Positions 1,871 to 20,079 of a stretch of 64,000 bases of DNA are shown piece after piece. Source of the DNA: Natrarchaeobaculum sulfurireducens (GTDB lineage Archaea > Halobacteriota > Halobacteria > Halobacteriales > Natrialbaceae); the NCBI RefSeq assembly GCF_003430825.1, contig NZ_CP024047.1, positions 3,348,001 to 3,412,000 on the forward strand. The letters run 5' to 3'. The notes under the pieces are model-generated. The model was not told the DNA's origin, made no database searches, and saw nothing but the letters and a program-made list of their open reading frames with translations. The position numbers and the translations under genes were made by a program. The first letter of the stretch is position 1, and each line of letters opens with the position of its first letter.

Positions 1871-2140
1871 TTACTTCCGGCATTGGGGTGCGGAAATTTG
1901 ACCTGTATAAAACGGTGCCAGCGATACGGCAGTGAGGATTAGGAGCATCAACTCCGTCTGTGTCGAGACGCTGCTAGTAAGGCCAAACACACCAACTTCA
2001 AATGTCGCCATCCCGATTGGTAAGGTTGCAAATTGGTGAAATTTGAGAGCAGGCATTGAATCGGCTCGGTTGACAGACTTAATTACTTGGAAGATATTGT
2101 CGTCGTTGCCGAAGCTTCTCTCGCTCTGATCGCTGGTCAT
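1871..2140 (-). CDS. Small membrane protein overlapping the integrase 3' end
   Basis: About 89 residues from the ATG at 2140. The N-terminus is polar. The second half carries two hydrophobic stretches: one around LPIGMATFEVGVFGL and one around ELMLLILTAVSLAPF, ending in a short polar tail. This suggests two short membrane segments. It begins inside the integrase gene (62-bp overlap, same strand, different frame), which suggests coupled translation downstream of the integrase. I do not recognise a named family. The amino-acid composition looks protein-like rather than like a shadow frame, and no other gene competes for this stretch. Confidence 0.5.
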   Translation of the reverse strand: MTSDQSERSFGNDDNIFQVIKSVNRADSMPALKFHQFATLPIGMATFEVGVFGLTSSVSTQTELMLLILTAVSLAPFYTGQISAPQCRK

Positions 2141-3092
2141 AGTGCCTATCAAGAACCGCCTCGCTGGCGTCCATCCGATCGCTCACGACGTTTTCGGGAA
2201 CGTCAGATTTCAGAAAATAAGTGATCGCACCACGTCGGACGGGGTGTGGGCTCAACGAGGAAGGGCACGCATGTGAACGCTCAGTAGGTACCGCATCACA
2301 CTCATCAAGTTCTCTGTCGTGGGGGCAGCAATCGGCATACACGCACGGACGCGTGTACTGGTAGACGATCGTCCGGCCGCGGGTTCGGCTCAACCGATCG
2401 ATTTTCGTCGCAAACAGTGGCTCGCGTTCGTACTGATCACGGACTCCGGGGTGGTTAACCGAGAGCCAGTCATCAAGAATCTCACAGACCGTCTCACTCA
2501 GTGCAACGAGCCGCTCACTCTTCCGCCCATTTTTGAGTGAGGTCCCCTCCTCAGGCCGATGTACAAGAGTGAGATACTGCTCCTCGGAGCTGTAGTCCTC
2601 CCTATCGAGCCCGATCGCTGCGCCGATTCGGAGCCCCGTGTGCCAGAGGACCTCCATCAGCGCGTGTTCTAAGCGCGCGTATCGATATTGATTGAGAAAG
2701 TCTAAGATTTGTCGAGCACGATCTGGATTCAGTAATTCGGTGCGAGCATCAGCTTCGGTCGTAGTCGGGAGGATGATCTTCTCATCGAGTCCTGGTTCTA
2801 CCGCATCAATCGTCGCACAGAAGCGGAGGAACATTCGCAGGGTCGCCAGCTGTCCCTTCATGCTGGCTGTTGCGAGTTCGTCCTCGTTTCGTCGTTTGAC
2901 GCGGAACCGGTGGATGTCTCGCCCGCTAAAGTCGTTGAGATTGTCGATACCGTCCTGTTCACACCACTGGACGAACTGCTTGAGACGATACCGGTGAGAC
3001 TGGATCGTCGCCTCCGCGAGTTCGTGACTCCGTTCGTCGAGGTACATCTGCATGGCCTCTCCTGGTGCGAGTGGTTCGAGGGTGTCTGTCAT
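2079..3092 (-). CDS. Tyrosine recombinase / integrase (XerC/D-like, archaeal type)
   Basis: 337 residues. It cuts and rejoins DNA at specific sites through a covalent 3'-phosphotyrosine. The N-terminal SAM-like DNA-binding domain spans about residues 10-95; the catalytic domain follows. Catalytic Arg is R155 in TGLRIGA, the beta-hairpin Lys is K187 or K191, box II is H283-P-V-R286, and the nucleophile is Y318 in DRHYD. The His/Trp usually found in the LGH position is replaced (DRMDAS). A cysteine cluster (CVYADCC ... HAC, residues 250-276) before HPVRRG looks like a small zinc-binding insert, as seen in other haloarchaeal integrases. It is the only integrase in the window and marks this end as mobile or formerly mobile. 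No tRNA or obvious att pair is adjacent. Confidence 0.92.
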   Translation of the reverse strand: MTDTLEPLAPGEAMQMYLDERSHELAEATIQSHRYRLKQFVQWCEQDGIDNLNDFSGRDIHRFRVKRRNEDELATASMKGQLATLRMFLRFCATIDAVEPGLDEKIILPTTTEADARTELLNPDRARQILDFLNQYRYARLEHALMEVLWHTGLRIGAAIGLDREDYSSEEQYLTLVHRPEEGTSLKNGRKSERLVALSETVCEILDDWLSVNHPGVRDQYEREPLFATKIDRLSRTRGRTIVYQYTRPCVYADCCPHDRELDECDAVPTERSHACPSSLSPHPVRRGAITYFLKSDVPENVVSDRMDASEAVLDRHYDQRSEREKLRQRRQYLPSN

Positions 3093-3196: not shown

Positions 3197-3262
3197 CCGT
3201 CAGGGCCCATAGAGCGAGCCGGACAGTTCGCGAGGGTCGCGGAATGATCTCTGACGGTTCGA
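3197..3262. repeat. Tandem repeat, copy 1 (66 bp identical)
   Basis: Identical to 3308-3373, offset 111 bp. The inner 61 bp (3197-3257) begin with CCGTCAG and end with CTGACGG, a 7-bp terminal inverted repeat. Weaker similarity continues past the identical part, so the original unit was about 111 bp. It lies in a 447-bp gene-free stretch (3093-3539) upstream of the integrase. Confidence 0.9.
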
Positions 3263-3268
3263 ACTAGA

Positions 3269-3293
3269 CGACGGCGAGCGAAGCGAGCCGTCG
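3269..3293. repeat. Hairpin in the repeat spacer
   Basis: CGACGGC and GCCGTCG arms of 7 bp around an 11-nt loop rich in GAGCGA. It sits between the two copies of the tandem repeat. No function can be assigned. Confidence 0.6.
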
Positions 3294-3307: not shown

Positions 3308-3373
3308 CCGTCAGGGCCCATAGAGCGAGCCGGACAGTTCGCGAGGGTCGCGGAATGATCTCTGACGGTTCGA
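3308..3373. repeat. Tandem repeat, copy 2
   Basis: Second identical copy of 3197-3262, again bounded by CCGTCAG and CTGACGG (3308-3368). After 3373 it resembles the sequence after copy 1, but with substitutions. The overlapping minus-strand open frame here is just the translated repeat and is not called as a gene. I see nothing else in 3374-3539. Confidence 0.9.
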
Positions 3374-3539
3374 GCTGGACGGCGGCCAACGACCGCACCA
3401 ATCACTCAACGGATAGAAGCCAACGGAGGTGCTAAACTAGACAGTACTCCTAGCTGCCAATACCTACGGTTAACGGATGGTCTGTTCATACGAGAGTAAA
3501 TGGATCTTCAAGATCGGATGGGAATTGGCAGCATTGTCG

Positions 3540-4793
3540 TCAGTAGCTACTTGAAGATCCGTCTACGGTGACAGTTCCGTCGACATCGACAGCCGACCCT
3601 GGACCAACCGTGAGATCCCCACCGACAGTGAGGTCGCCAGTGGCCACGAACTGGTTGCCGTTGATCGTAACTGAACCGTCGACGATGATATCGCCGTTGA
3701 TGTCCAGTCGAGCACCCTGTCCAACTACGAGGTCACCGGTGACGAGAAGATCGCCGCTCGTTCGAAGCACATCTGCGTTCCAGACGACAGACCCGCCGAC
3801 ACGGACGTCTGCTACGCTTTCGACGACTGCACCGCCACCGAACTCGAGGTCTCCGCCCACAGTGATTCCCGATTCAGTCGTGGAAAGCCCGCGACCCTGT
3901 CCGGAAAGGGCAGTGTTTGAGAGCGTTCCACCGACGATAACACTCGTTGTTTCAAGATTCGATCCACCGCCGAGTAGCAGGTCGGCACAGACCTCGAGGG
4001 AGGCAGGCGAGCCACCGAGAGTACCGCCGTTAGCTATCTCCAGTGAGTTCCCGGTCGTAATCGAACCACCGACGTTCGCGCCGCCACTGAGTGTAACTAC
4101 GCCACCAGCGGTAACGTCGCCGTCAATCCGGGAGCCGCCAGTAGCGTCGACCGATCCACTCACGTCAACATCGCCGAGGACACGGCCAGCGCCCGATAGC
4201 GAGACGTTGTACGTACCGGCTATCGTATCAGTGGACTGACTGCCGAAGACGCTTGCCGTCGTTTCGTCACCCGTCGGCTCGAGACTGCAGGCAGAGATAG
4301 TTTGCCCAGGCGTGCCCAGGCACGTGATCTCAACCGATCGACGAGCTTCGACCCGTTCGGTTTCTCCCTCCGCAACGATATCTAGAACGACTGTTTCCGT
4401 TCGGTCACCGTTGCAGCTTACGGTCGCGATAACAGGTAACCGCTGTCTAGGACTAAACGTACCAGTAGGTAGCGGCGTCTCAACATCGACGTCGAGACCA
4501 CCTGACGAGACAACGTCGACGGTGACCGTTTCGAACGCTGATGAAAACCCGTTCGTTAGCTCGATCATCGAGATCGTCGTTCCGCTTTCGACCGTCGAGT
4601 CGAACAGCTGGATTCTGAGCAGCGCTTCGTCGTCTCGTCGCACGGCTAGATCGAAGGGACGAGTCATCCGTACCGTATCGAATGCTCCCGACACACCGAC
4701 GCTCAACAACCCACCACCGGCGAGCATAGCCAACGCAGTGCGTCGGCTCACACCGCCAGACCCACCTCGAGTGCGTCGTTTTTCTCGACTCAT
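3540..4793 (-). CDS. Secreted beta-helix (bactofilin-like) surface protein of the SipW cassette
   Basis: 417 residues. The N-terminus has an Arg pair (SRRTAL), a hydrophobic stretch and SGAF at about residue 37, the same leader end as in the other secreted proteins of this cluster. Residues 40-170 look like a beta-sandwich. From about residue 195 to the end the chain is built of short beta repeats of the type GDVxVxG, GGSxxxxG, ending VDVDGTVTVDG. This pattern suggests a right-handed beta-helix like bactofilins and polymer-forming cytoskeletal proteins, here exported. The ATG lies directly after the stop of the upstream gene (1-bp gap), so the two are surely co-transcribed. It could be a structural matrix or adhesin component; that role is inferred from context. 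Confidence 0.75.
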   Translation of the reverse strand: MSREKRRTRGGSGGVSRRTALAMLAGGGLLSVGVSGAFDTVRMTRPFDLAVRRDDEALLRIQLFDSTVESGTTISMIELTNGFSSAFETVTVDVVSSGGLDVDVETPLPTGTFSPRQRLPVIATVSCNGDRTETVVLDIVAEGETERVEARRSVEITCLGTPGQTISACSLEPTGDETTASVFGSQSTDTIAGTYNVSLSGAGRVLGDVDVSGSVDATGGSRIDGDVTAGGVVTLSGGANVGGSITTGNSLEIANGGTLGGSPASLEVCADLLLGGGSNLETTSVIVGGTLSNTALSGQGRGLSTTESGITVGGDLEFGGGAVVESVADVRVGGSVVWNADVLRTSGDLLVTGDLVVGQGARLDINGDIIVDGSVTINGNQFVATGDLTVGGDLTVGPGSAVDVDGTVTVDGSSSSY

Positions 4794-4794
4794 C

Positions 4795-5673
4795 CTAGGT
4801 CAGTATTTCTGTTACGAACTCGATGTTAGCGAGTTGTTCAAGCGCCGTCGTCTCACCGCGGGTGTCAACCTCGATACCGACCTCTGTGACCGCGCCGACC
4901 GGTAGTTCGATGGTCCTCGAGTACAGGTCGATGCCGCGGTCGAACTGGTCGGTACCGACCGTAATGCGAAACGGAAGCCGGAGCTGGCTGGCGACATCGA
5001 CGGTCTCACCGTCGGCATTGGTTGCTGTGACTGATACCTCGACTGTGTGACCGCTAGTTCCCGGTGTGCTAGGGTCGTCGATGTTCGCGACGAGAAACGC
5101 CGGTCGGTCTCTATCGCCGTTTCCACCGACGGTTCCGATCCTCGAGACGGCGTTCGGATTCACGTTCTCGAGGGTGAAACCCGCCAAGAAACCGTCACCG
5201 TCGGCAGCGACCAGATCAGAGGCCGTCATCCGGCCGTCCCAGCCGAGCTGCGCGAGCAGAGTCCCGTCGTTCGTCGGGTCAGCAACGACCTGGATGCGAC
5301 TTTCGGTCGGCTCAGATGAGTCGTCACTCGAGGCCGAGCCGTCATTTCCCGACTCGTCTCCCGCTGGATCGTCGGTCGGTCCGTCGGCTGGGTCGTCATC
5401 GGACCCGGCTCCCTCGCCCACGTTGTCGAGGTCATCGGAGTTCGAATCAGAGTCGGGTTCATCGCTGTCAGTCGGCTGGTCGTCACCAGCGTTCGAATCC
5501 TGGTCGGTCGATAGCACTGGACTATCGACGCCGGCAACACGGACCCACCCATCACCACTGCTTCCTTCGGAACTGACTCTAAACGCTCCACTGACGAGAA
5601 AGCCGCTGGCTCCGAAGACCAGAGTGCCTATTCCTATCAGTGTGTTACGTCGGCGAAGTGATGTCATCGTCAT
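4795..5673 (-). CDS. Secreted or anchored protein with acidic linker, SipW cassette
   Basis: 292 residues. Basic N-terminus (SLRRRNTL), one hydrophobic segment and SGAF near residue 31. Residues 55-125 are a very acidic Ser/Asp/Gly-rich linker. From about 125 a beta-rich domain follows (IQVVADPTNDGTLLAQLGW onward) with a DUF1102-like feel, including repeated NPNAVSRIG- and TVEVSVTATN-type strands. It lies 111 bp downstream of the smaller DUF1102 protein and 1 bp upstream of the beta-helix gene. Probably an exported subunit or adaptor processed by the neighbouring signal peptidase. The domain assignment is weaker than for the 174-residue neighbour. Confidence 0.7.
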   Translation of the reverse strand: MTMTSLRRRNTLIGIGTLVFGASGFLVSGAFRVSSEGSSGDGWVRVAGVDSPVLSTDQDSNAGDDQPTDSDEPDSDSNSDDLDNVGEGAGSDDDPADGPTDDPAGDESGNDGSASSDDSSEPTESRIQVVADPTNDGTLLAQLGWDGRMTASDLVAADGDGFLAGFTLENVNPNAVSRIGTVGGNGDRDRPAFLVANIDDPSTPGTSGHTVEVSVTATNADGETVDVASQLRLPFRITVGTDQFDRGIDLYSRTIELPVGAVTEVGIEVDTRGETTALEQLANIEFVTEILT

Positions 5674-5784
5674 GTCTGGTGACCGAACTGTTTTTCAGGA
5701 GCGGCCAGTTGTGTCGGTTAGCGGGGTAATCGAACGGGGTACTAGTGGTGTCGAGTTCGCTTCTGCTATCCCCCAAAAGCGTCT

Positions 5785-6309
5785 CTACTCCGCTGCAGCG
5801 TCGGACTCTGCGATGATGGTGATCTGGTGTGGCTCTCCCCCTTCGGGTTCGGTGTAGCCACCTTCGCGGGTGTTCACTTCCAGGCCGACACTGATCGTCT
5901 CACCGACATCGATTCCGACACCATCTGTGAGGTTATCCCCATCGTCGGCGACAGTAAACGTCAGTCCCTCGACGTCTTCGAGGTCAAGCCGGGCTTCGAC
6001 GTCTTGTGAGCCGTTGTTCGTCAGGTCGAAGACTTCGAAGAACGTCGTGACTGCGTCCTCGTTGAGACTATCATCAGCTTCCAAACTGAAGACGATGACC
6101 TCGTTGTCACCGGCCCCACTTTCTTCCGTTCGTGCGATAGCATCGTTCGTGACGGTGATTCCGAGCTGGCCGCCAGCGTCGCCGGAGACGCTCACGTCGA
6201 AACTCCGCTGTGCTTCGACGCTGTCGAACGCACCGGAACCGCCGATGAGACCCGCACTGCCGGCCAAAACGCCCAATCCAATGATCGTGTTTCGTCGTGT
6301 AATTCCCAT
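5785..6309 (-). CDS. DUF1102 / TasA-CalY-like secreted subunit
   Basis: 174 residues. Leader: ITRRNTIIGLG, hydrophobic stretch, then GGSGAFDSVEAQRSFDVSV, a classic opening for haloarchaeal DUF1102 proteins. The rest is a compact beta domain: alternation of hydrophobic residues, NDAI/NNGSQDVEARLDL strands, and a final EPHQITIIAES strand. DUF1102 belongs with the TasA/camelysin group of exported filament subunits cut by SipW-type signal peptidases; the archaeal bundling pilus subunit of Pyrobaculum is a relative. Its neighbours are a SipW-like peptidase and two further SGAF-leader proteins. I therefore read it as the likely major fibre subunit, though polymerisation is not shown by sequence alone. 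Confidence 0.8.
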   Translation of the reverse strand: MGITRRNTIIGLGVLAGSAGLIGGSGAFDSVEAQRSFDVSVSGDAGGQLGITVTNDAIARTEESGAGDNEVIVFSLEADDSLNEDAVTTFFEVFDLTNNGSQDVEARLDLEDVEGLTFTVADDGDNLTDGVGIDVGETISVGLEVNTREGGYTEPEGGEPHQITIIAESDAAAE

Positions 6310-6485
6310 ACTGACTCCTGGTTCCCACCGGTCTTTGTATTGATCCGCCAGCCAGTAAAACAGGCAACGCCAGCCAACGAACCGGGCAACGCGATCCGGC
6401 GTTCAAGCTCACTGGTCCGTGATGCAGGCGGTGCCAGAAGCGGCGCAGTCCATCAGTAAGAAGGACACACTGGTCTGGAAACGGT

Positions 6486-7043
6486 TCAGTCACCAATCTC
6501 CGGCGGTATCTCGGTTGACCCAAAGTGCAGCCGCTGTGAATCGTATCGGTGGACGACAGCCGATAGAGAGATCGCGATAGCAAACAGTATACCAACGACA
6601 GTTACCGAGAGCGCCTCCGGGAACCATCCGATGTGGGCGAACGTGATCGACGCCGCACCGACCATCGCTAACCCGAGATAGTACAGCGGCCAGGGAATCG
6701 TCTTCGACGGCACCACCTCCAGATAAATATCCAAATTTTTCGCCCGCTCGGTCGCGACTAGCTCGTTGCCGACCCGGTCAAGGAGATCAGCGTCTTCGAG
6801 TTTCGAGAGATGGTGTTGCTGGATCGATGTGTAGACACGTTTGCGCTCGGTAGAAGTGAGCTCCTCGATGGGTTTGTCGTACTCCCAGGCAGCAACCTGT
6901 TCAGCGACATCGGAAAGTGTCGTTGCTCCGCCAGCCTGATTGCAAGCGTACAACACATACCGGCGTCGGTGGTTTCCGAGAGCAGTAAAGAGCGCGTCTT
7001 TTTCTTTTCGAGCATCTAACGTGGCAACTGGTCGTAAGCTCAT
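6486..7043 (-). CDS. Membrane-anchored winged-helix regulator (DUF7344 type)
   Basis: 185 residues. Residues 15-105 form a winged-helix domain: ALFTALGNHRRRYVLY, then TSTERKRVYTSIQQHHLSKLE as the recognition helix, then a wing ending in the ERAKNLDIYL segment. This matches the DUF7344 type common in haloarchaea. Residues 115-165 contain two transmembrane helices, and a short charged tail follows. Such an arrangement can couple an envelope signal to transcription. It sits between the signal peptidase and the fibre-subunit genes on the same strand, so it probably controls this cassette. The signal is unknown. Confidence 0.8.
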   Translation of the reverse strand: MSLRPVATLDARKEKDALFTALGNHRRRYVLYACNQAGGATTLSDVAEQVAAWEYDKPIEELTSTERKRVYTSIQQHHLSKLEDADLLDRVGNELVATERAKNLDIYLEVVPSKTIPWPLYYLGLAMVGAASITFAHIGWFPEALSVTVVGILFAIAISLSAVVHRYDSQRLHFGSTEIPPEIGD

Positions 7044-7144
7044 ATTGATCGATTAAACAGTATTTCTCATCGGATAGAGAGTTCGTCCGGACTTAACAGT
7101 TTCCTCGTCGGCCGTTTGTGTTTTTGAAATGTTATTTTGTCACA

Positions 7145-8305
7145 TCACCACCGTGGTGGTGGCGGGAGTCGTCGCTTGAGCCGTTCAACAAGAGTTAGTT
7201 CCCGACGTTTCGAACGGACCTTGATCCGGTCGGTACCGAGAGTTGTAAATGAAACAGCGATTACAGCTCCGGCTACAGTGGCGTTGATTGCGGCGAGTGC
7301 AACCACAGGATGGATAGCGTGTAAAGCAGCGATCAGCGACGGCGGCAGCACGACGAGGTATCGGTATTCACTGACAAAGCGGAGGTGAACCCCAGTCTCG
7401 TCGGGTGCGTGCATCGTTACCGACGTCTCGACTGTTGTCCCCCTTGGAATGTACGTATAGCCATCTGGAGGGTCGACGCCATCACTTGCGGGCTCGAGTA
7501 CCGTGATGACGGGGAGATGACCGCTGTTTCGCATTACGTAGGTGACGTCGGTCGAGTCACCAACACCGGCAACCCACTCGTCGTCGGTGGGTGATGTCGA
7601 ACTGACAAGTTCGTACTGGTAGGTGCCCGAGGGGAGTAACATCGAAGCGTTCACCGGAACGATGACGACGAGCGTAAGGATCGCGATCAAGACGAGCGCG
7701 TTTTGCAACGGGCTATCATCTGAGCGTCGGCGTGCTCGCCGGTCGGCAGTCCATCGGATCGCACTCATAATGTAGAGGGCAAGCCCAAGGACCAGGATAG
7801 TCGTCGAGACCGTTCTGATGTCAGGCGGATCGATTCCAAACGGTGTGAGCACCCGCTCTTGGACCGATTCGACCGTTCCGCTGACCGCAGTAACCGTCGC
7901 ACCGAGGCCCGGAATAACCACCAGATCACCGTCGAGTTGGAGTGCAACCGAGCGAACCTGTCCGTGCGCAACCGGCGGTTCGTCGCCGTCCTGGTCGAGG
8001 AACGGATTCGCATCCCCTTTTGTCAAGTACCCCTCACCCGTGACGGCCTCGACTCGGTGAGTAGTGACCTCGCCGCCACCGAGTTCCCGTGAGTCGAAGA
8101 CGATGACATCGCCCGGTTCGACCTCGCCAGCAAACAGCGCCGGGATGGCCACGAAGCCGTCGTTTGGCTCGAGCGTCGGAGACATGCTCCCAGTCTCCAC
8201 GAAGACGAGAAACGGCTGGCCAAGCAACTGCCCAAAGAGTAAGACGACGATCAGCGTGGCGAGAACGGCGGCGACAGCGTACTGCGTGAGGTCTCGCGGG
8301 TTCAT
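7145..8305 (-). CDS. Signal peptidase I, SipW/ER-like type with C-terminal extension
   Basis: 386 residues. An N-terminal membrane helix is followed by the S26 peptidase fold. The catalytic Ser is S40 in ETGSMSPTL; the general base is His in VTTHRV, as in SipW/ER-type enzymes rather than the Lys of bacterial LepB; KGDAN is the conserved Asp box. After about residue 170 come two more membrane helices enclosing an extracellular beta domain of about 100 residues, then a helix and a basic tail. This extension is longer than in housekeeping signal peptidases, suggesting a dedicated substrate-presenting domain. Its substrates are probably the SGAF-leader proteins encoded just downstream. Confidence 0.9.
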   Translation of the reverse strand: MNPRDLTQYAVAAVLATLIVVLLFGQLLGQPFLVFVETGSMSPTLEPNDGFVAIPALFAGEVEPGDVIVFDSRELGGGEVTTHRVEAVTGEGYLTKGDANPFLDQDGDEPPVAHGQVRSVALQLDGDLVVIPGLGATVTAVSGTVESVQERVLTPFGIDPPDIRTVSTTILVLGLALYIMSAIRWTADRRARRRSDDSPLQNALVLIAILTLVVIVPVNASMLLPSGTYQYELVSSTSPTDDEWVAGVGDSTDVTYVMRNSGHLPVITVLEPASDGVDPPDGYTYIPRGTTVETSVTMHAPDETGVHLRFVSEYRYLVVLPPSLIAALHAIHPVVALAAINATVAGAVIAVSFTTLGTDRIKVRSKRRELTLVERLKRRLPPPPRW

Positions 8306-8401
8306 GCCGATCGAGAGTCGCCAGCAAGGCAGTCTATCTGTAACTGTTCTTCCTGACAGGGCACCCAGGCGAGGCCGTCTCCACAGCTCAATCCGTCAGT
8401 C

Positions 8402-9538
8402 TCAAAACGTATGCTCATCGAACTCCCCCAGAGTGGTGTCCGCATAGCTGACCAACCAGTCGTGTGCCGGTGAGTCGGCCCGTACGTGCAGGTAAATATA
8501 CTCGTCGTCGAGCACCGTGCTGACCCCCAGTTCACGGTCTTCGATTACTCGCTTGTTCGTATCGATCGCAACGTCGACTAGGCCCTCGAGATCGTCGACG
8601 AGGACCGTCTGTTCGTACTCGCGTTCAGACGGGAACGTGCCAGCCGTGATCCAATCGTCGTACTGCGAGCGGTGCTGCTCGTGTTTTAGCAGGTCTCGTT
8701 CCTCGTCAGTGAGTTCGATGTACCCACCGACACGGGCGACGATCAGCGAGACGAGCCCGACGAACGCGAGGCCAAACAATATAATCGAGCCGAGAGATTC
8801 AAACAGCGATGGTTCTGAGAGAACCTCGACGGTTTCGAACTCTTGGTGGCGCTCTTCGACGGTCATAGTGTCGGAAACACGGAACGTCGCCGGATCGACG
8901 AGCAACAACAGCTCGCTGTCGTAGCTGTTCGAGACCGGCTCACCGTCGACCGTTCCCTCGACTGTACTCGCCGAAACTACCCGTGCATCGACGACGCCCT
9001 CCGCGGAGCCGACCTGCTGTTCGACGGTCGAGATCGTCTCGAGAACGAACGGAATGTGGACGTCGAATTCGACGGTGTGGGCGTCTGCCGGCGAAAGCGA
9101 CGACGTACTCGCTGCCTCGAGCGGTTCGACGACCTCCCAGTAGGTCTCGACGACCTCCCCGTTCTCGAGTTCGCCAGCCCTAAGGATCAAGTAGGTATCC
9201 GTCGTCACCGAGAGATTCCCATGGTTGGCGTCGTACTCGTATGTGTATGTTCCCGATAGATCGTCCGAGAGATTCGTATAGTAGATGGGACGATTCGAAA
9301 GGGTTTCACCAGCTTCGAAAGGAATTGTCTCTTGGTCGACAACGACGCTGTGTTCGTAGTCAGTGGTCTCCGTCCACTGGTCGACCGGGTGCTCGTCGGT
9401 CTCGACATCATGGACGACGTTGACCTGATAGGCCCACCAGCCACAGGCGACTGCCGCAAGCAGCCCCACGACGAGAAAAACGACATACCAGTCCCTGACG
9501 AGGGCTTTGGTTCGGACCGGTCGATCCAGTTCGGTCAT
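8402..9538 (-). CDS. DUF5305-type membrane protein of the SipW cassette
   Basis: 378 residues from the ATG at 9538; a GTG at 9574 would add 12 residues but looks less natural. One membrane helix (about residues 20-40), then a long extracytoplasmic beta domain (residues 45-255), a second helix (about 262-285), and a cytoplasmic part with ELTDEERDLL and a final alpha/beta domain. DUF5305 proteins are repeatedly found next to SipW-like peptidases in haloarchaea, so an assembly or anchoring role for the exported fibres is plausible. It is first in the cassette on the minus strand, 96 bp before the peptidase gene. Confidence 0.75.
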   Translation of the reverse strand: MTELDRPVRTKALVRDWYVVFLVVGLLAAVACGWWAYQVNVVHDVETDEHPVDQWTETTDYEHSVVVDQETIPFEAGETLSNRPIYYTNLSDDLSGTYTYEYDANHGNLSVTTDTYLILRAGELENGEVVETYWEVVEPLEAASTSSLSPADAHTVEFDVHIPFVLETISTVEQQVGSAEGVVDARVVSASTVEGTVDGEPVSNSYDSELLLLVDPATFRVSDTMTVEERHQEFETVEVLSEPSLFESLGSIILFGLAFVGLVSLIVARVGGYIELTDEERDLLKHEQHRSQYDDWITAGTFPSEREYEQTVLVDDLEGLVDVAIDTNKRVIEDRELGVSTVLDDEYIYLHVRADSPAHDWLVSYADTTLGEFDEHTF

Positions 9539-14696: not shown

Positions 14697-14818
14697 TGAA
14701 AGCGGCGAATCCACGTTCCCAGAGGGTCTCCCACTCCAGTACTTGCCGATACGCGGGCGAGCTTATCTTCCGTGTTCGGGATGGGTACGGGAGGTCCCTC
14801 GCCGCTCTGGCCGCTCTA
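14697..14818 (-). rRNA. rrf: 5S ribosomal RNA, second (distal) copy
   Basis: About 122 nt, nearly identical to the proximal copy in the core: the block with CCCGTACCCATCCCGAACAC and AGTACTGGAGTGGGAGACCC is shared. Differences sit in helix I (GTTAGAGCGG paired with CCGCTTTC, against GTTACGGCGG with CCGCCGAC in the other copy), so pairing is preserved. Ends are estimated by homology. Confidence 0.93.
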
Positions 14819-14926: not shown

Positions 14927-15048
14927 AGTCGGCGGCGAATCCACGTTCCCAGAGGGTCTCCCACTCCAGTACTTGCCGATACGCGGGCGAGCTTATCTTC
15001 CGTGTTCGGGATGGGTACGGGAGGTCCCTCGCCGCTCTGGCCGCCGTA
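14927..15048 (-). rRNA. rrf: 5S ribosomal RNA, first (proximal) copy
   Basis: About 122 nt, located after the 23S gene on the same strand. Recognised by the archaeal 5S core (ACCTCCCGTACCCATCCCGA, then CACGGAAGATAAGC) and closing helix GCGGC/GCCGC. Followed by a second 5S about 110 bp further on. Ends are estimated. Confidence 0.95.
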
Positions 15049-15175: not shown

Positions 15176-18096
<2,921 letters not shown>

Positions 18097-18161
18097 TTCA
18101 TCGGATCGACGTTGCGATAGAATCGCAACGGAATGTCGTCACACCGAAGTGTGACGATTGT

Positions 18162-18209
18162 GACCCGGGAACGGGTCCAGTGGACGCCTGGACTACACGT
18201 ACACACGGT
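18162..18209 (-). other. 23S processing stem, 5' arm
   Basis: Minus-strand ACCGTGTGTACGTGTAGTCC, then about 28 nt ending CCCGTTCCCGGGTC, pairs with 15109-15156 and would loop out the whole 23S. It is the partner of the 3' arm. Confidence 0.8.
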
Positions 18210-18311
18210 CTCATCTGCACGCCCGCTGACTAACGGGCCTGCATCAACCCTTCCCACTCACGCTTGCGCGGAGTGGTGCATCGGTTTCGTTCGGATCAGA
18301 TCAAAGTTCCT

Positions 18312-18333
18312 TGCCACACTTAAGGGCACGGAT
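18312..18333 (-). promoter_or_regulatory. Internal spacer promoter between tRNA-Ala and 23S
   Basis: Minus strand GATCCGTGCCCTTAAGTGTG, nearly the same as promoter P3 upstream of 16S (GATCCGTTGCCCTTAAGTGT). The CTTAAGTG box is the archaeal TATA position. Spacer promoters of this kind are known in haloarchaeal rRNA operons; here it would allow extra 23S/5S transcription. Confidence 0.75.
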
Positions 18334-18352
18334 CTCGATCCCATCCGAGGTA

Positions 18353-18424
18353 TGGACCCACTGGGATTCGAACCCAGGGCATCCTCCTTGCAAAGGAGGC
18401 ACTCTCCCACTGAGCTATGGGCCC
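18353..18424 (-). tRNA. tRNA-Ala (anticodon UGC)
   Basis: 72 nt, no intron and no encoded CCA. Acceptor GGGCCCA/TGGGTCC with discriminator A; T-arm with TTCGAAT loop; anticodon loop TTTGCAA giving UGC. Its place in the 16S-23S spacer is standard for Euryarchaeota. Confidence 0.97.
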
Positions 18425-18465
18425 ACCCCTGTCTCACGTCTCACGACAGCGAGACAGGGTGTTAT

Positions 18466-18482
18466 GTTAGCCTTGGTAGTTC
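18466..18482 (-). other. 16S processing stem, 3' arm
   Basis: Minus strand GAACTACCAAGGCTAAC is perfectly complementary (17 bp) to 20185-20201 before 16S. Further partial pairing continues through GATCGG-type segments. It would close the 16S precursor loop. Confidence 0.85.
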
Positions 18483-18607
18483 AAAGGTGCCCGATCGGCC
18501 GACGATGGGTCGATCGAACGTAGACCGTGTGGCGCAAAGCGCCACGGTTCGCCGTAGCGTAAAACGCTACATAAGGTGGGTCAGGCCATCGGCCTGATCC
18601 CGATCTG

Positions 18608-20079
<1,472 letters not shown>

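Follow-up and report, generated by a model that had tools for sequence, protein, structure and literature searches.

Tat-fimbriae (tafi), surface fibres of archaea, were described only recently (Galeva et al. 2025, iScience 28:111793, as cited in PMC12687288). TasA assembles by donor-strand exchange, and archaeal fibres related to it have been noted (PMC9674648); the TasA cleavage site has a Phe at P2' (PMC10269814). The reference taf locus used for comparison (L075, in genome G084) encodes a DUF5305 protein, TafF, TafE, TafA, a DUF7344 HTH protein, TafC and a SipW-type peptidase, with the HTH gene between tafA and tafC. Its TafA, TafC, TafE and TafF all score above the NCBIfam cut-offs, and its TafC ends in a laminin-G domain (8.6e-23).

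The window analysed here is a stretch of 64,000 nt from the haloarchaeon Natrarchaeobaculum sulfurireducens (G000, contig 3, NZ_CP024047.1, 3348001-3412000). An earlier reading made from the sequence alone (the sequence-only reading) had described six same-strand genes at 3540-9538, and all six are present as intact reading frames on the minus strand. In the order of transcription they encode a DUF5305 protein, a SipW-like peptidase, a DUF7344 HTH protein, and three proteins that we call p174, p292 and p417; a single base separates the p417 start from the p292 stop. The cassette is seen again in other genera and families and is therefore not a chance arrangement. We conclude that this is a divergent tafi-type locus, a variant of a known system and not a new one, and that its genes very probably serve to build, and to control, a thin tafi-type fibre on the cell surface, assembled by donor strands and of a divergent subtype. 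Because the NCBIfam scores fall under the curated cut-offs we label the locus tafi-like and not equivalog; from strict tafi membership it departs on two points, these cut-offs and the absence of TafF. The sequence-only reading had missed both the tafi identity, described in 2025 and with a solved pilin, and the type of the export signals.

These signals are shared by p174, p292 and p417. An RR and a GAF motif are invariant in the p174 and p417 alignments, and p292 has RRRNTL followed by SGAF, so that three exported proteins with a common leader, as previously proposed, are indeed encoded. Judged from their sequences, the RR signals are of the Tat type.

The relation to tafi is seen in p174 (5785-6309, minus strand), a Tat-signal pilin of the TafA/TafE/Tafi-pilin family. 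As a single sequence it matches the Tafi pilin of Natrinema sp. J7-2 (9p0a) with a phmmer value of 3.5e-10, and its family profile matches 9p0a with E 9.5e-33 across profile positions 1-175 of 178. The NCBIfam models TafE (3.4e-18, 66 of 155 bits) and TafA (29.3 of 190 bits) score below their curated cut-offs on p174. There is no Pfam family match, DUF1102 (PF06510) included, and the DUF1102 label first given to this protein is not supported. We compared an AF2 monomer model of p174 (mean pLDDT 76.7, with N-terminal residues 11-28 under 50) with 350,542 chains using Foldseek. The first match is the Pyrobaculum calidifontis bundling pilus (7ueg; E 7.5e-4, probability 1.00, 11% identity) and the second the Sulfolobus 0406 filament (7pnb; E 2.7e-3); the chain described as 'Natrinema sp. 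J7-2 Tafi pilus' (9p0a) is also matched (E 2.4e-2). The TM-scores are modest, at 0.40-0.45 for 7ueg and 9p0a and 0.31-0.32 for 7pnb, and TasA entries are not among the best 50 matches listed. By these comparisons the predicted fold is a beta-sandwich of the TasA/CalY and bundling-pilus type, in agreement with the proposal of a fibre system like TasA and the archaeal bundling pili and distinct from type IV pili. Type IV pili themselves were considered and rejected, given RR signals with a SipW and a beta-sandwich subunit. We presume that p174 is the shaft subunit.

A different explanation is that p174, p292 and p417 are SipW-processed adhesins, located at the cell surface or associated with the S-layer, that form no filament. 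This would agree with the lack of an anchor and of any TafA above the cut-off, but p174 is homologous almost end to end to a protein whose solved structure is that of a pilus, and a dedicated SipW together with several pilin-like genes is the layout of known donor-strand fibres. We regard adhesins as very unlikely and prefer the tafi-type fibre.

The second exported protein, p292 (4795-5673, minus strand), is pilin-like in its C-terminal half, which matches the pilin profile with an hhalign probability of 97.4% (E 1.5e-11). An acidic spacer of 67 residues (57-123) separates this beta domain from the conserved stretch at the start of the mature protein. In an alignment of seven homologues all keep a G-(x)-W/F-(V/I)-(R/Q) stretch after GAF, followed by the spacer, which is nearly absent in three loci (L069, L071 and L072) and in another (L065) contains Flg_new_2 (InlB-type) repeats in five stretches. 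The same locus (L065 7729-12539, in genome G075) has six p174-like pilin genes beside this p292 homologue, which suggests pilin gene amplification. We also considered whether p292 is a relative of TafF and rejected this, as profile comparison gives a probability of 1%; TafF itself has the pilin domain in common (96% by profile comparison). The presumed role of p292 is that of an adapter.

The third, p417 (3540-4793, minus strand), is a TafC-like end protein with an RR signal, a pilin-like N-terminal strand, an Ig-like beta-sandwich (about 60-159) and a predicted solenoid (about 178-417). NCBIfam TafC matches residues 16-158 (8e-18; 64.7 of 410 bits, below the curated cut-off), and Pfam Bactofilin (PF04519) scores slightly under its cut-off (1.2e-5; 25.9 versus 27.9 bits), which a relative in L067 exceeds. 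In the AF2 model strands recur about every 6 residues in the solenoid region with moderate confidence (pLDDT mostly 60-87), and the hydrophobic period of 6.45 was reached by 24 of 500 shuffles. Together with the p174 model, these results return the predicted TasA-type beta-sandwich and the beta-helix that had been expected of the two proteins. Foldseek matches to p417 are mostly to the Ig-like domain and not to the solenoid, and its sequence gives only weak matches in the PDB. What p417 has in common with the pilins is the signal and the N-terminal strand (profile 97.8%), not the pilin body. From the models, then, p417 is predicted to combine a TafC-type N-terminal domain with a bactofilin-like beta-solenoid in place of the laminin-G lectin domain.

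It could be argued from the bactofilin-like C-terminus and its predicted solenoid that p417 self-polymerises outside the cell as a bactofilin-type scaffold, with p174 as an accessory. The N-terminal part of p417 is, however, a TafC family domain whose C-terminal partner in the reference loci is a lectin, and the solenoid families are mixed among its relatives: Pfam reports Bactofilin in 2 of 15, and some others have DUF5649, antifreeze-type or other repeats. This mixture suggests an exchangeable tip or spacer and not a polymerisation unit, and we find a self-polymerising scaffold highly improbable. Solenoid-like repeats behind a TafC-type domain also occur in another clade (e.g. L016, L017 and L025).

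Export and assembly would involve the three remaining genes. The SipW-like peptidase (386 aa; 7145-8305, minus strand) scores just under the cut-off of TIGR02228 (signal peptidase I, 4.7e-13) and matches Pfam S26 (8.3e-5). It is of the Ser/His/Asp type, and its Ser, His and two Asp are kept in 24 of 24 aligned relatives. The protein has an ectodomain and a C-terminal membrane segment, the ectodomain being flanked by hydrophobic stretches at about 204-222 and 317-352. This extra extracellular domain had been singled out earlier; since matches across haloarchaea span almost the whole length (about 1-380), it is a general trait of the haloarchaeal homologues and not special to this locus. The DUF5305 membrane protein (378 aa; 8402-9538, minus strand; Pfam PF17231, 3e-44) has spans predicted from hydropathy at about 18-36 and 249-267 and is likely the assembly-platform partner of SipW. 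The HTH protein (6486-7043, minus strand; DUF7344, Pfam PF24035, 2.9e-22) has two C-terminal spans predicted by hydropathy, as expected for the membrane-anchored regulator first described, and a homologue in the reference taf locus (3.8e-27). The genes for these three proteins adjoin in the window and in seven related loci of its clade. Response-regulator-like genes are found inside L069, L071, L072, L074, L080, L081 and L083.

We propose that p174, p292 and p417 leave the cell by Tat, as their RR motifs suggest, and that the SipW-type peptidase would cut at G|AF, before the conserved A-F, in a manner resembling the P2' Phe of TasA. By analogy with relatives and from the fold, each pilin would then insert the N-terminal stretch exposed by cleavage into its neighbour and so complete that neighbour's beta-sandwich, with p174 forming the shaft and p292 acting as an adapter or hinge, in which a pilin domain is held on a long acidic spacer from the N-terminal stretch. 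Because p417 starts with a strand like that of the pilins, while an Ig-like domain and the solenoid stand in for the pilin domain, it would donate a strand and probably cap or start one fibre end, its solenoid taking the place of the TafC lectin domain. The exposed domains of SipW and the DUF5305 protein may constitute the membrane assembly site, and the DUF7344 protein would control the operon.

It is doubtful whether the locus encodes a complete fibre system, since it encodes neither a TafF-like protein nor a lipoprotein anchor. TafF has no match at the locus, its best match in the genome being at E 0.01 on another contig, and TafA has no match at E<=1e-6 anywhere in the genome. A Tat lipoprotein anchor was sought at the locus and not found, and a weak homologue is present elsewhere (E 3.4e-9). 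In related loci, Tat lipoproteins of no known family are encoded beside the pilins (L064 9126-9617, L065 12598-13113, L067 3631-4101, L080 7204-7794, L081 9022-9561 and L082 7541-8098) and are possible fibre anchors.

The same genome contains a second tafi-type locus (L010 8906-14415; contig 3 at about 752-758 kb). It encodes a DUF5305 protein, a SipW (43% identical) and two TafE-like pilins, along with a divergent DUF7344 protein and a protein of 418 aa. The 418-aa protein is TafF-like, has N- and C-terminal membrane spans by hydropathy, and gives a weak Pfam DUF1102 score (E 0.02). The locus in the window might be a remnant or partial copy that makes no fibre alone, or might supply subunits to the fibres of the second locus, where the TafF-like protein has a C-terminal membrane span; the lipoprotein and second pilin of its closest relative (L064) are also missing. 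All six frames are nevertheless intact and well conserved (73% identity for SipW, 62% for DUF5305 and 59% for p174 to their counterparts in G119), and the peptidase has kept its catalytic residues. We consider a remnant or subunit supplier unlikely and retain the interpretation of a locus that makes its own tafi-type fibre.

Strong p292 matches (E < 1e-30) are present in 8 of 292 genomes of the class, and these are exactly the genomes with the highest-scoring SipW; the next best p292 match has E 2.8e-19. This agreement calls for caution, as sequences from six of the eight genomes, together with that of the window, went into the p292 profile; G066 was found independently. In a SipW tree the eight form a clade with 100/100 support that covers two families (f1 and f4), a distribution which, on the sequences compared, is compatible with transfer between lineages. 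More speculatively, the locus may belong to a distinct fimbria subtype that has been passed from one haloarchaeal family to another. The pilin of such fibres would have a spacer of adjustable length between donor strand and body (from almost none to five repeats), and their end-piece, a solenoid or a lectin, could be exchanged, giving a tunable reach and specificity.

Linkage to the peptidase, also anticipated in the sequence-only reading, is frequent but not universal. Of 47 places with TafC/p417-like matches, at least 20 have a listed SipW no more than 15 kb away and 16 have none at that distance among the matches listed; the other 11 are beyond the SipW matches listed. In G231 the structural cassette is on one contig and the SipW-DUF5305 pair on another, and the two modules can therefore separate.

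Just downstream of p417 is a tyrosine recombinase gene (2079-3092, minus strand; Pfam Phage_integrase 4.1e-11), and an 85-nt direct repeat (3197-3281 and 3308-3392) lies between the two. At 64-1632, on the plus strand, is a gene for a protein with a C-terminal NOV_C domain (Pfam 3.5e-9), a domain found in restriction and defence proteins. A 16S-tRNA-Ala-23S operon (15181-20079) is followed by a tandem pair of 5S rRNA genes on the minus strand, at 14697-14818 and 14927-15048, in a 141-nt repeat that is 96% identical. The low G+C at 14.7-20.1 kb was considered as an island and rejected, as this region is the rRNA operon. A PHROGs search returned nothing useful.

These observations suggest that tafi fall into subtypes, in which end domains can be exchanged and a pilin has a spacer of adjustable length. 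They also suggest that two tafi sets can be present in a single genome and that curated family models overlook divergent tafi relatives. The six-gene set also provides a testable system for the cutting and assembly of Tat-exported pilins.

Among the described systems, bactofilins (PF04519) resemble the p417 solenoid with its strand period of about 6 residues, but p417 is exported, fused to a TafC-type domain and slightly below the Pfam cut-off. The P. calidifontis bundling pilus is like p174 by fold alone (TM about 0.40). The TasA/TapA/SipW system of Bacillus subtilis shares a dedicated SipW, beta-sandwich subunits and the Phe at P2', and its accessory strand-donating protein is a possible analogue of p417; it differs in giving no sequence match and in having ordinary signals where those of the window locus are Tat-type, and the window locus adds the HTH, DUF5305, solenoid and spacer proteins. 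With respect to tafi, the locus in the window scores under the TafA, TafC and TafE cut-offs, has no TafF, has an extra spacer-bearing pilin (p292), and has its HTH gene between SipW and the pilins; its TafC-like protein has a beta-solenoid where the reference TafC has laminin-G, a departure from the described lectin end-piece. It nevertheless shares with tafi homologous Tat-signal pilins, a TafC-type end protein, a SipW-type peptidase, a DUF7344 HTH protein and a DUF5305 protein, all encoded in one locus.
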